Shown here in pieces: positions 24,898 through 28,552 of a stretch of DNA of 64,000 bases. The translations under genes and the position numbers were made by a program. Position 1 is the stretch's first letter. Each line of letters opens with the position of its first letter. The notes below the pieces were generated by a model. It was given only the letters and a program-made list of their open reading frames with translations, was not told the DNA's origin and ran no database searches. The stretch is from NCBI GenBank assembly GCA_900114885.1, contig FOUN01000012.1, positions 1-64,000 on the forward strand, in the 5' to 3' direction. The stretch is from Psychrobacillus psychrodurans. Lineage in GTDB: Bacteria > Bacillota > Bacilli > Bacillales_A > Planococcaceae.

Positions 24898-25095
24898 AAA
24901 TGATAAAGCGTTGAAGAGCATTATAAGTACTACATCCTAAGCGAGTGGGGTCAGTGAAAGCCCACATTGTAGGAAAACGGCAGCTTGGAGCTTATGCTTT
25001 TAAAGAGGATTGTTTTTTAACAATCAATCGGGGTGGAACCGCGGGTTAATAACTCGTCCCCGGGCACTTATTGCCCGGAGACGAGTTATTTTGTG
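24898..25095 (+). promoter_or_regulatory. T-box riboswitch (glycine) upstream of glyS
   Basis: The leader contains the T-box sequence GGGTGGAACCGCG (25031-25043), a preceding stem III region, and a long intrinsic terminator (25048-25095, stem of about 19 bp ending in TTTTG). Stem I spans roughly 24910-25000. The GGC followed by A at 24979-24981 is a plausible glycine specifier codon. Uncharged tRNA-Gly should stabilise the antiterminator and turn glyS on. The specifier assignment is an inference from position; the T-box itself is clear. Confidence 0.93.
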
Positions 25096-25134
25096 TTCCG
25101 GGATAAAGTGACAAAATTTAATGGAGGTTATCAA

Positions 25135-26517
25135 ATGACAATTACAATGGAAAACGTAGTTAGTTTAGCAAAACAAAGAGGTTTTGTATTTCCTGGATCT
25201 GAAATTTATGGTGGTTTAGCTAATACATGGGATTACGGCCCCCTTGGTGTGGAACTAAAAAATAACGTCAAAAAAGCTTGGTGGAAAAAATTTGTTCAAG
25301 AATCACCTTATAACGTAGGTTTAGATGCAGCTATTTTGATGAATCCTAAAACTTGGGTTGCATCTGGTCATATAGGTAACTTTAATGATCCAATGATTGA
25401 CTGTAAGAAATGTAAATCTCGTCATCGAGTAGATAAAATCATTGAAGATGCACTAGACAAAAAAGGTATTGAAATGGTAATAGACGGCCTTTCATTTGAG
25501 AAGATGGAAGAAATCATGAAAGAGCACAATGTTGTTTGTCCGTCATGTGGTGCTTTTGATTACACAGAGATTCGCCAATTCAACTTAATGTTCAAAACGT
25601 TCCAAGGTGTAACTGAAGCTTCTACAAATGAAATCTTCTTACGCCCTGAGACTGCACAAGGTATTTTCGTAAATTATAAAAACGTTCAACGCTCTATGCG
25701 CAAAAAAATGCCTTTCGGTATTGCACAGGTAGGTAAAAGTTTCCGTAACGAAATTACACCAGGAAATTTCACATTCCGTACAAGAGAGTTCGAACAAATG
25801 GAACTAGAATTCTTCTGCAAGCCCGGCGAAGATATGGAATGGTTTGAATTCTGGCGTAATTATTGTAAAGAATGGTTATTAAACTTAGGTGTGTCTGAGG
25901 ATACAATTCGTTTACGTGACCATTCAGAAGATGAACTTTCTCATTACTCTAACGCAACAACAGATATCGAATATAAATTCCCATTCGGTTGGGGTGAGCT
26001 GTGGGGTATTGCAGATAGAACTGATTTTGATTTAAAACAGCATATGGAGCATTCTGGAGAAGATTTCAATTATATTGACCCAGTAACAAACGAACGTTAT
26101 GTACCGTATTGTATCGAACCTTCTCTAGGAGCTGACCGTGTAACATTAGCATTCCTCTGTGAAGCATTTGATGAGGAAGAATTAGAAGGTGGCGATGTAC
26201 GTACTGTATTACGCTTCCACCCTGCATTAGCACCAGTTAAAGCAGCAATTTTACCACTTTCTAAAAAATTGTCTGAAGGAGCAACTTCTTTGTTTTCAGA
26301 TTTAAGCAAGCACTTCATGGTGGAGTATGATGAATCCCAATCTATTGGTAAACGTTACCGTCGACAAGATGAAATCGGTACTCCTTTCTGCATCACATAT
26401 GATTTCGATTCAGAAACAGATGGCCAAGTTACTGTACGTCACCGTGATTCGATGGAACAAACTAGAATGCCAATTGCAGATGTAATAGAATACATCGAAA
26501 ATCATTTGCAATTTTGA
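25135..26517 (+). CDS. glyS: Glycine--tRNA ligase, single-chain dimeric type
   Basis: The 460-residue class II synthetase charges tRNA-Gly. It is the homodimeric bacterial/archaeal/eukaryotic-like form: [28 protein letters not shown] near the N-terminus, motif 2 in [25 protein letters not shown], motif 3 in SLGADRV, and a C-terminal anticodon-binding domain with [16 protein letters not shown]. Staphylococcus uses this form, whereas B. subtilis uses the tetrameric GlyQ/GlyS at the same locus. The ATG at 25135 follows TGGAGGTTATCAA. It is controlled by the T-box and has a strong terminator. It is the only gene between ccpN and recO and is on the opposite strand from both. Confidence 0.95.
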
Positions 26518-26550
26518 TATTAAGTCACTATTGAGTGATTGTTAAAAATA

Positions 26551-26600
26551 AACGCAAGAATGTTGTTCGCCACCTTGAACAATATTCTTGCGTTTTGCTT
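26551..26600 (+). terminator. Terminator after glyS
   Basis: An 18-bp stem (26551-26568 with 26577-26594, one G-U pair) around an eight-base loop is followed by TTGCTTT. Left arm begins AACGCAAGAAT. Confidence 0.85.
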
Positions 26601-26644
26601 TGCCAATTTAAAAACGAGTAATGAATACATGTAGATGCTTCTAC

Positions 26645-26761
26645 ACGGATATGTGCTGCTGCACACTACGCATGAGCCCTCAAGGATGGTCGCTGACGCT
26701 CCTTCATCCTTTTTGAAGTCTCATTCTTCGCGCTCATGCGGCTTGGAAAGCTCACATCCTA
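26645..26761 (+). repeat. Dispersed structured repeat, family R3, copy 1
   Basis: The segment from ACGGATATGTG to CTCACATCC contains nested inverted repeats: GCATGAGC with GCTCATGC, and GGATG with CATCC, around CGCTGACGCTCCTTC. The first two-thirds recur at 39796-39890 with about three quarters identity (ACGCATGAGCC, TTCATCCTTTTTGAA). No coding potential is convincing. It lies in the 1.1-kb gene-free block after glyS (26601-27723). Confidence 0.65.
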
Positions 26762-26859
26762 GCTATCAGTGGTAATTCAGAAATCAGATTCTAAAATGAC
26801 ACGATAATGCATTTGAAATATATAAAACCTTTAAAATTAATGGTCAAGTTTTCCATTCC

Positions 26860-26985
26860 GCAAGTAAATCATCTCTAAGCGCAACTAACTAACTAATAAT
26901 CGCAAGTAACCTGTTTGGCAGCGCAAGTAAAATCCACATGAACGCAAGTATCCACCGATTCAAAGCAAGTAACTGTCAATTAAGA
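26860..26985 (+). repeat. Six-unit array of GCAAGTAA motifs with exact 21-bp period
   Basis: The motif GCAAGTAA (or GCAACTAA, GCAAGTAT) starts at 26860, 26881, 26902, 26923, 26944 and 26965, exactly 21 bases apart each time. Four of the six are preceded by C. The 13 bases between motifs differ in every unit. Two helical turns per unit would place all motifs on one face of the DNA. A single GCAAGTAA occurs at 39931 in the related block. It is not a CRISPR array, since both motif and spacer are far too short. Confidence 0.85.
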
Positions 26986-27114
26986 GATGCCTTCTACACG
27001 TCTGTTTGCTGCTGCTTAAGCTATGATTTATTCATCTATTTTGTGTTGCATAACTTTTGATTTATTTCATAGTACTTAAAACACTTACTTTGCTCTATCT
27101 TAAAGTTAAGATTA

Positions 27115-27690
27115 ACTCGCCTATTGATTGAAGTGTAACGCGGCGACTCCAGCGGGAACAGCGAGAAAGTCGAGACCCCACAGAGAGCGTAGCGAACGAG
27201 GAGGCTCGGCCTCGCCCGCGGAAAGCGTCCGCGTGAAACGGAAATCACAGTATTACTATCACTTAAAATACCTTCTGAATTCATCGTTCCTTTAATAATT
27301 ATCTCGATAAATCCTAAAGTTTAAATTTACTCGTCTATTGATGGAAGTGTAACTCGGCGACTCCAGCGGGAACAGCGAGAAAGTCGAGACCCCACAGAGA
27401 GCGTAGCGAACGAGGAGGCTCGGCCTCGCCCGCGGAAAGCGTCCGCGTGAAACGGAAATCACAGTATTACTATCACTTAAAAATACCTTCTGCAATCATC
27501 ATCCCTTTAATAATTATCTCGATAAATCTTAAAGTTTAAATTTACTCGCCTATTGATTGAAGTGTAACGCGGCGACTCCAGCTGGAACAGCGAGAAAGTC
27601 GAGACCCCACAGAGAGCGTAGCGAACGAGGAGGCTCGGCCTCGCCCGCGGAAAGCGTCCGCGTGAAACGGAAATCTTAGTGTCAATTCTC
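27115..27690 (+). repeat. Tandem array of three R1 repeats, 214/215-bp period
   Basis: The sequence GGCGACTCCAGC starts at 27142, 27356 and 27571, giving periods of 214 and 215 bases. Each unit has a GC-rich core of about 105 bases (GGCGACTCC, AGCGAGAAAGTCGAGACCCC, GGAGGCTCGGCCTCGCCCGC, GGAAAGCGTCC, GAAACGGAAAT) and an AT-rich link of about 110 bases (CTATTGATTGAAGTGTAAC at its end). The cores differ at only one or two positions, so duplication is recent. The third unit lacks the link on its right. Open frames on the minus strand across the cores are side-effects of the repeat. Confidence 0.9.
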
Positions 27691-27723
27691 CTCTGATACA
27701 CCATATTGCTTTTTTAGTACAAC

Positions 27724-27768
27724 AAAAAAATCCAAGTCCAAAGAATTAGTCTTCTTCGGGACTTGGAT
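27724..27768 (-). terminator. Terminator embedded in the end of recO
   Basis: On the minus strand ATCCAAGTCC (27768-27759), which codes the last residues of RecO, pairs with GGACTTGGAT (27739-27730) beyond the stop codon, and is followed by seven U. The 5' arm of the hairpin is therefore coding sequence. Confidence 0.85.
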
Positions 27769-28534
27769 CTTCTTTACGTGGTGTGAAAAACTCTGGGGTT
27801 TTCTCCATTTGATCTAAAAAGTGTTGCGACTTTAATCGTATTCCGACTTGTTCACTATAAATCGTTCGGACAATTTTTTTAATAAATCCTTTTGTCTCTT
27901 TTTTGAGTGTCAGCTTACCTACTTGATTAATAGGAACTGTATAAAAGGTCCGAATAAGCTTCACTTGAGAAGGAGAGAGTCTGATAATATAAGGGTCAAT
28001 CGAAAAACATCGATGGCAAAGAAATCCTATTTGTGAAAAAGAAAAAGCAAATTCTCCATCTGTTGCTCCGCAATTGGTACATTGATGAAGTGTTGGATAA
28101 ATACCTGCTGTCGGAAGAAGCTTCCATTCCACAAACAAACTAATTGCCTCTGGATCATATTCTTCTGATATAGCATGTAATGCCTGTTGTAATATTTCAA
28201 ATAACTGTGGCTTAGGTGCTTCATCATCAATTAATTTGTCCACTAATTCCATTATAAAACTTGCGTATGCAGTAGCAAATATATCTTCTCGAACAGATCT
28301 CATAGAGTCAATAATTTCACCTTGCTGCAAAGTCCCCATTCCTCTTCCTTGCTGTATCAAAAAATAGCCATACGTAAAAGGCTGAGAAATAGAAGCTAAA
28401 CGGCTAGTTGGTTTTTTTGCCCCCCGAGCCATAGCTGCTCGCTTCCCCAATTCACGTGAAAAAATGGTAACGATTTTATTAGATTCTCCATAAGAAGAAG
28501 CTCGTAAGACAATACCCTCTACTTTTTGTAGCAA
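27746..28534 (-). CDS. recO: DNA repair protein RecO
   Basis: The 262-residue RecO helps load RecA on gaps through the RecFOR pathway. It has the N-terminal OB-fold (MLQKVEGIVLRASSYGESNKIVTIF), a helical domain, and a zinc-binding module with CTNCGA and CHRCF (about residues 148-172). I choose TTG at 28534, after AAGGTGAGG, because it yields the family's MLxKxEGIV start; a GTG three codons earlier has no spaced Shine-Dalgarno. It follows era by 18 bases with no room for the small yqzL gene of B. subtilis. The terminator is partly inside its 3' coding end. Confidence 0.94.
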   Translation of the reverse strand: MLQKVEGIVLRASSYGESNKIVTIFSRELGKRAAMARGAKKPTSRLASISQPFTYGYFLIQQGRGMGTLQQGEIIDSMRSVREDIFATAYASFIMELVDKLIDDEAPKPQLFEILQQALHAISEEYDPEAISLFVEWKLLPTAGIYPTLHQCTNCGATDGEFAFSFSQIGFLCHRCFSIDPYIIRLSPSQVKLIRTFYTVPINQVGKLTLKKETKGFIKKIVRTIYSEQVGIRLKSQHFLDQMEKTPEFFTPRKEDPSPEED

Positions 28535-28552
28535 TTGCCTCACCTTCTTTCT

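Follow-up and report, generated by a model that had tools for sequence, protein, structure and literature searches.

The six GCAAGTA-type words in the window (the whole stretch of 64,000 nucleotides that was analysed) are best explained as one copy of a discrete intergenic element, a protein-binding platform which has been spread in short non-autonomous repeats, although belief and doubt in this explanation are for us evenly balanced. The fixed anatomy of the element, its limit of six units, its occurrence at dozens of loci, the conservation of its words over its spacers and the lineage-specific nature of those words are established, and the way in which the sequence behaves suggests that a protein assembles on the array.

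The array in the window

The words lie at 26860-26972 in the gap between glyS and recO, and each step between them is exactly 21 bp. The original prediction had placed the word starts at 26860, 26881, 26902, 26923, 26944 and 26965 on a rigid 21-bp step, which is correct; it had also taken the six motifs to be identical, whereas four are exact copies of GCAAGTAA and those at 26881 and 26944 are GCAACTAA and GCAAGTAT, respectively. The features of the region are as follows.

25033..26517, + strand: glyS (glycyl-tRNA synthetase), an ORF named by reading its sequence; upstream of the array and in the same direction
26551..26597, + strand: likely intrinsic terminator of glyS, an inverted repeat AACGCAAGAATgTTGTTC / GAACAAtATTCTTGCGTT followed by TTTT
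26842..26854, + strand: leader palindrome GGTCAAGTTTTCC, at -18 to -6 from the first word; an exact match to the family leader
26860..26867, + strand: unit 1, GCAAGTAA
26881..26888, + strand: unit 2, GCAACTAA, one difference; likewise GCAACTAA in the orthologous array of congener G004
26902..26909, + strand: unit 3, GCAAGTAA
26923..26930, + strand: unit 4, GCAAGTAA
26944..26951, + strand: unit 5, GCAAGTAT, one difference
26965..26972, + strand: unit 6, GCAAGTAA, the last; there is no seventh unit
27746..28543, - strand: recO, an ORF, convergent, on the other side of the array

The likely glyS terminator ends about 250 bp ahead of the leader, no credible ORF was found within the array, and recO is present in all 19 of 19 genomes of the genus. 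The T at word position 8 in unit 5 is common within the element family. The 13-base spacers have a mean identity of 34%, and Tandem Repeats Finder did not call the array because they fail to align. No plasmid relatives of the array were found.

Two other repeats occur in the same gap. A 215-bp GC-rich repeat, with a motif beginning CGGCGACTCCAGCGGGAACAGCGAG, is present in 2.7 tandem copies at 27097-27675, between the array and recO, where the counterpart gap in G004 is about 200 bp shorter. Positions 26640-26807 form a further dispersed repeat, with partial matches (about 81%) near the C8:329115 arrays and at locus L093 of congener G014.

Recurrence and the 21-bp step

The genome to which the window belongs (G000, 4.0 Mb) contains 147 GCAASTAW triplets at 21-bp steps, against 0 for a reversed-word control, and 342 GCAAGTA pairs with a step anywhere in the range 8-37, against 1 for the control, an excess which excludes chance at the genome scale. 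Every step among the approximately 100 GCAAGTA pairs listed was either 21 or 20, and in the first 400 kb read same-strand pairs less than 38 bp apart were spaced at 21 in 111 cases, at 20 in 10 and elsewhere in 0. A total of 1.24 Mb of G000 was read, part of it picked for its arrays so that their density is not to be extrapolated, and this yielded 87 arrays at 47 loci, with steps of 21 bp (371), 20 bp (30), 19 bp (1) and 22 bp (1) and a mean step of 20.92 bp, equal to 10.46 bp per turn. The check proposed beforehand, a search for 21-bp pairs elsewhere in the genome, thus found many intergenic arrays with the same period and unrelated spacers; of the two outcomes named as refuting, an absence of 21-bp enrichment and spacers that align as a degenerate tandem duplication, neither was seen.

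An exact four-unit search for any array with a conserved core and variable spacers, at periods of 13-63, recovered 21-bp arrays in G000 (7), G004 (14) and congener G009 (5), and only five arrays with another period, all in G004; two of these have a period of 42 bp, twice 21, and the other three come from a simple TAAG repeat. In G000 a relaxed six-unit search over periods of 14-42 gave 42 arrays at 21 bp and a single one at 42 bp; in G004 it gave 30 at 21 bp and a single one at 16 bp. Among the periods scanned, such arrays occur essentially only at 21 bp. A replichore-polar motif (KOPS- or Ter-like) would follow the replication arm in its orientation; along the single-contig chromosome of congener G008, read by contig position, array strands were mixed.

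Anatomy of the element

The core of the element is GCAAGTAWAY at a 21-bp step, and 65 of the 87 arrays have six units, the others having five (12), four (4), three (5) or nine (1). The positions of would-be units 0 and 7 match the word at chance level only, and six is therefore a real limit. A partial palindrome, e.g., GGATAATTATCC, precedes the arrays at a fixed distance as a leader with the family consensus TGGAWAAWTTWYCC-NTTYC. In 26 unrelated six-unit loci, from which the large dispersed subfamily was left out, CC occupies -7/-6 in 26 of 26, T occupies -19 in 96% and GG is found at -18/-17 in 81/73%, and the leader has an AT-rich middle, is TT-rich at -4/-3 and mostly has C at -1. The original prediction held the 13-base spacers to be free, and this is borne out for their inner parts, in which identity within arrays is 26.0% against 26.4% expected from composition. 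The spacers are not wholly free, however, because base choice shows a bias on either side of the word (at -3, -1 and +7 to +9), with A or C before it, W-A-Y after it and A three bases before it. Spacers are also G-poor.

An element may stand alone or be repeated whole in tandem, with periods of, for example, 156-177, 186, 217-238, 226 and 326 bp. At C8:302461 there are eight elements in G000 and one in G004, and at C12:55480 about eight or nine in G000 and two in G004. Subfamily A comprises 16 recognised dispersed copies, in which the spacers and flanks (approximately -120 to +170) are alike at about 80%, and the closest pair of dispersed copies matches at 86%, which leaves no recent dispersal visible. 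A near-clean 203-bp element is present in G004 and absent in G000 directly 3' of a terminator; no terminal inverted repeats or target duplication were obvious at this indel or in the subfamily A alignment, in both of which the ends of the element are approximate. The six-word element at C8:286375-286487 is inverted in place between G000 and G004:C1 (stretches L107/L108) with its words intact. Several loci are occupied in just one of the two species, and no single array site can therefore be indispensable.

It had been supposed that the array might be a mobile sequence which grows in 21-bp steps. Past dispersal is real, as seen in the 16 copies with spacers shared at about 80%, but such growth is contradicted by the limit of six units, and size changes by whole elements (about 156-326 bp).

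Genomic context

Long ORFs contain none of the arrays at the 47 loci in the 1.24 Mb. With the array taken as the forward direction, the neighbouring genes at the 45 loci which could be classified are arranged as ++ (18), +- (16), -- (9) and -+ (2), against a background for gaps of at least 250 bp of ++ (126), +- (55), -- (60) and -+ (35), counts which are approximate as the gene calls are simple longest ORFs; arrays are over-represented in convergent gaps and under-represented in divergent ones. The upstream gene is co-directional with the array at 34 of 45 loci. At 18 of 47 loci the 150 nt upstream of the leader contain a terminator-like hairpin on the sense strand, compared with 5 for downstream antisense and 4 for downstream sense controls over the same 47 loci and with 6.75% of random windows. 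Several of the genes upstream of arrays in G000 read as genes with roles in translation (glyS, argS, leuS, gatB) or as other core genes (pyrG, murA, ftsZ).

Conservation of words and spacers

The window array is kept at the same place in G004, with four differences within the array, all of which fall outside the words. Across eight orthologous arrays of G000 and G004, 19 of 322 word positions (5.9%) and 87 of 535 spacer positions (16.3%) have changed (Fisher p = 5e-6), so that words change about three times less than spacers between the two species, in a comparison biased by the fact that arrays with lost words are harder to detect, which depresses the word rate to some extent; with one decayed pair (C8:314633) included from a hand reading, that rate would be about 6.7%. 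A similar picture is given by subfamily A, in which agreement with the consensus is 96% in word columns and 81% in spacer columns.

Relatives and variant words

Arrays of GCAAGTAA are plentiful in the congeners G004, G007 and G008, and an array of G007 is also found on Psychrobacillus antarcticus contig L215. In other congeners the word differs, being GCAACTAA in G009 and GMGAGTAA in G005. At C16:47224-47508 of G009, about 100 bp separate a LytTR-domain match from a GCAACTAA array, the only such adjacency noticed. Planococcus (genus g7) carries GCAACTAA arrays, several of them directly 3' of terminator-like T-runs, and its L190 array is identical to an array of G144. Fictibacillus has six-unit GCAASTAA arrays, found with a pattern which demanded five exact units so that only the upper limit on units is informative, with their own fixed leader, ATGAAAATGAYGTG-N-T, and with five contexts between divergent genes by crude ORF calls. 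A sample drawn from across the class gave matches in 9 of 398 genomes. Most of those pattern-scan hits outside Bacillales which were examined proved to be simple or tandem repeats and not this element, and a viral origin was rejected as the only IMG/VR match (L311) reads as a coding Ala-Ser-Asn repeat matching by chance; TATACGAGAG arrays had no viral match.

Other core words, TATACGAGAG, ACCACATAAA and AATCGCAAG, occur at the same 21-bp step in congeners, in longer arrays whose step shortens to 19 bp once in every four or five units. There are 42 TATACGAGAG pairs in G004 and 0 in G000, and at least four core words share the 21-bp step in G004. Arrays with a different core (TATACGAGAG, ACCACATAAA, AATCGCAAG, AACCTTGC and TTCCAACTAAA) were seen at L099-L111, L117 and L118 of G004, and further at L260-L263 of G008, L257 of G012 and L098 of G009; in the long ones the 19-bp step every 4-5 units creates super-periods of 103 or 82 bp. 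In G032, which belongs to another genus of the family, contig C1 carries GCAAGTAA arrays with a 103-bp super-period near 444365 (locus L002), 472768 and 1175385, of which those near 444365 and 472768 are long, and all G032 matches are on one strand.

A proposed binding platform and its alternatives

A palindrome followed by six direct words of 8-10 bp at a two-turn step would place all of the words on one side of the helix, where a host protein would recognise them. A dimer of this protein may occupy the palindrome as a nucleating site, with six further subunits lining one face of the DNA, and the product would be a defined nucleoprotein block of about 130 bp. Such a block would more probably be a boundary, a roadblock or a structural mark on the chromosome than a promoter operator, because the arrays are mostly behind genes, often after terminators and rarely between divergent promoters; this bias in location could simply be a matter of which places tolerate insertions. 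That one array has been inverted between species with its words intact favours an action of the DNA itself over that of a strand-specific RNA. The element would have spread in the past inside short non-autonomous repeats and then have been retained at many loci. A protein-binding array was among the possibilities raised by the original prediction and would seem to fit best, judging from the conservation of the words, the leader, the 10.46 bp per turn and the lineage-specific words, all of them properties of sequence.

The main rival of the binding platform is a selfish, non-autonomous MITE-like element in which the palindrome and six repeats form the end recognised by a transposase or recombinase whose gene lies elsewhere, insertion being tolerated or targeted behind terminators. 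The resemblance of the 16 subfamily A copies across the genome, the 203-bp presence/absence polymorphism right behind a terminator, the excess of upstream sense terminators over controls, the tandem copies of whole elements and the copy inverted in place would all be accounted for in this way. We nevertheless regard it as unlikely to be the whole explanation: neither terminal inverted repeats nor a clear target duplication were seen at the approximate ends of the element, the absence of any dispersed pair more than 86% identical argues against recent transposition, no transposase-like gene was recognised by eye among the neighbours, and the words would not be spared if decay after insertion were neutral. 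The two readings are compatible, with spread first and retention later.

It is quite improbable that the element acts as RNA, with the six GCAAGUA words of read-through transcripts recognised by an RNA-binding protein in 3' UTRs. The co-directional upstream genes, the enriched upstream sense terminators and the G-poor spacers are in its favour, but nine loci are antisense to both neighbours and two lie between divergent genes, five contexts in Fictibacillus (by crude ORF calls) are divergent too, words were kept when one array was inverted between species, region 26400-27800 has no Rfam family match up to E = 1, and a helical period is not expected of single-stranded RNA. Still less probable is an array operator for a LytTR-type transcription factor. 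It would explain the shared geometry of a conserved word and a free spacer, usually at 21 bp and occasionally at 20 bp (PMC6193735), but the sites described are pairs just upstream of promoters whereas these arrays have six units and are mostly behind genes, the numbers of LytTR genes (2-6 per genome, with four matches in G000) do not follow array presence within the genus, and the core words TATACGAGAG and ACCACATAAA are unlike LytTR sites. We give least credence of all to an ordinary degenerate minisatellite, formed by tandem duplication of a 21-mer and subsequent decay. The tandem 21-bp layout is what this would leave behind and minisatellites inside mobile repeats are known (BrickBuilt, PMC4596501), yet the inner spacers are at the composition expectation, six units is the maximum across two families, the leader is fixed and Tandem Repeats Finder made no call on the window array.

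Several other candidates were rejected. A coding repeat (21 bp being seven codons) is contradicted by stops in the forward frames of the window array and in its Leu-Leu-Ala reverse frame, and by the 20- and 19-bp steps, which break the frame. Slippage of a microsatellite is at odds with spacers at chance identity, growth in 21-bp steps with the six-unit limit, and a variable-number minisatellite with both the chance identity of the inner spacers and that limit. In CRISPR arrays the repeats measure about 23-50 bp, the unique spacers are of similar length and cas genes lie alongside; here the repeat is 8-10 bp, the spacer 13 bp and no cas-like gene was recognised by eye among the neighbours.

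To return to the binding platform, a wider proposal may be offered tentatively, and is in our view more probably wrong than right: that Bacillales chromosomes carry a class of sites at which a protein with lineage-specific recognition assembles as six subunits, a fixed number, on words phased at two turns, with paralogous words coexisting in one genome, as in G004, and turning over between species in the manner of fast-evolving docking or boundary sites.

Comparison with known systems

The usual intergenic repeats of bacteria are palindromes, transposon remnants and variable-number minisatellites. The constant number of units, their helical phasing, the invariant leader and words which diverge in at least three genera of Bacillales point instead to a new candidate DNA-binding system with dozens of sites per genome, and the words, leaders and species variants listed here open direct tests of the candidate binding. 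Searches of the open-licence literature on GCAAGTAA, on TATACGAGAG, on 21-bp repeats and on repeats in these genera gave no description of the element. Iteron origins and the centromere-like partition sites of plasmids also have phased direct repeats with one binding protein and a nearby palindrome, and there is usually one per replicon beside the gene of the binding protein; the arrays differ in that dozens are found per chromosome without such a gene.

The original prediction knew of no named element of this form, which holds for the element as a whole, but a word with a free spacer at 21 bp is the geometry of paired LytTR operators. These consist of two 9-bp direct repeats with 11-13 bp (usually 12) free between them, a step of 20-22 bp, and sit upstream of the -35 of regulated promoters (PMC6193735). 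The arrays resemble them in the length of the direct repeat, about 9 bp, and in the step of 20-22 bp, and differ in having six repeats and a palindrome and in lying mostly behind genes, with only 2 of 45 loci between divergent genes.

The STAR elements of staphylococci are dispersed intergenic direct repeats at 32-39 loci in S. aureus, with loci that differ per species, and are suspected to be under purifying selection with no known function; their 14-bp, GC-rich motif, T(G/A/T)TGTTG(G/T)GGCCC(C/A), occurs in copies at least 40 bp apart, mostly singly, with 1-7 per locus (PMC3532100). The arrays resemble them in being dispersed at many intergenic sites, tens of loci per genome, with a short conserved motif and spacers, but their 8-10 bp word, strict 21-bp step, six units and leader palindrome do not fit the STAR motif definition. 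BrickBuilt, a minisatellite-in-MITE of Porphyromonas gingivalis, has a leader and 23-bp tandem repeats with conserved and variable sites, and is found at multiple loci with one example behind a terminator; its terminal inverted repeats match insertion sequences, and its 1 to 22.8 repeats follow one another without spacers (PMC4596501). It is likewise intergenic and shares a leader, a tandem repeat close to two turns in length and dispersed homologous copies, whereas the arrays have random spacers, a fixed count and no terminal inverted repeats seen at their approximate ends. STAR and BrickBuilt are the nearest repeat families, and the element described here differs from both in their defining features.
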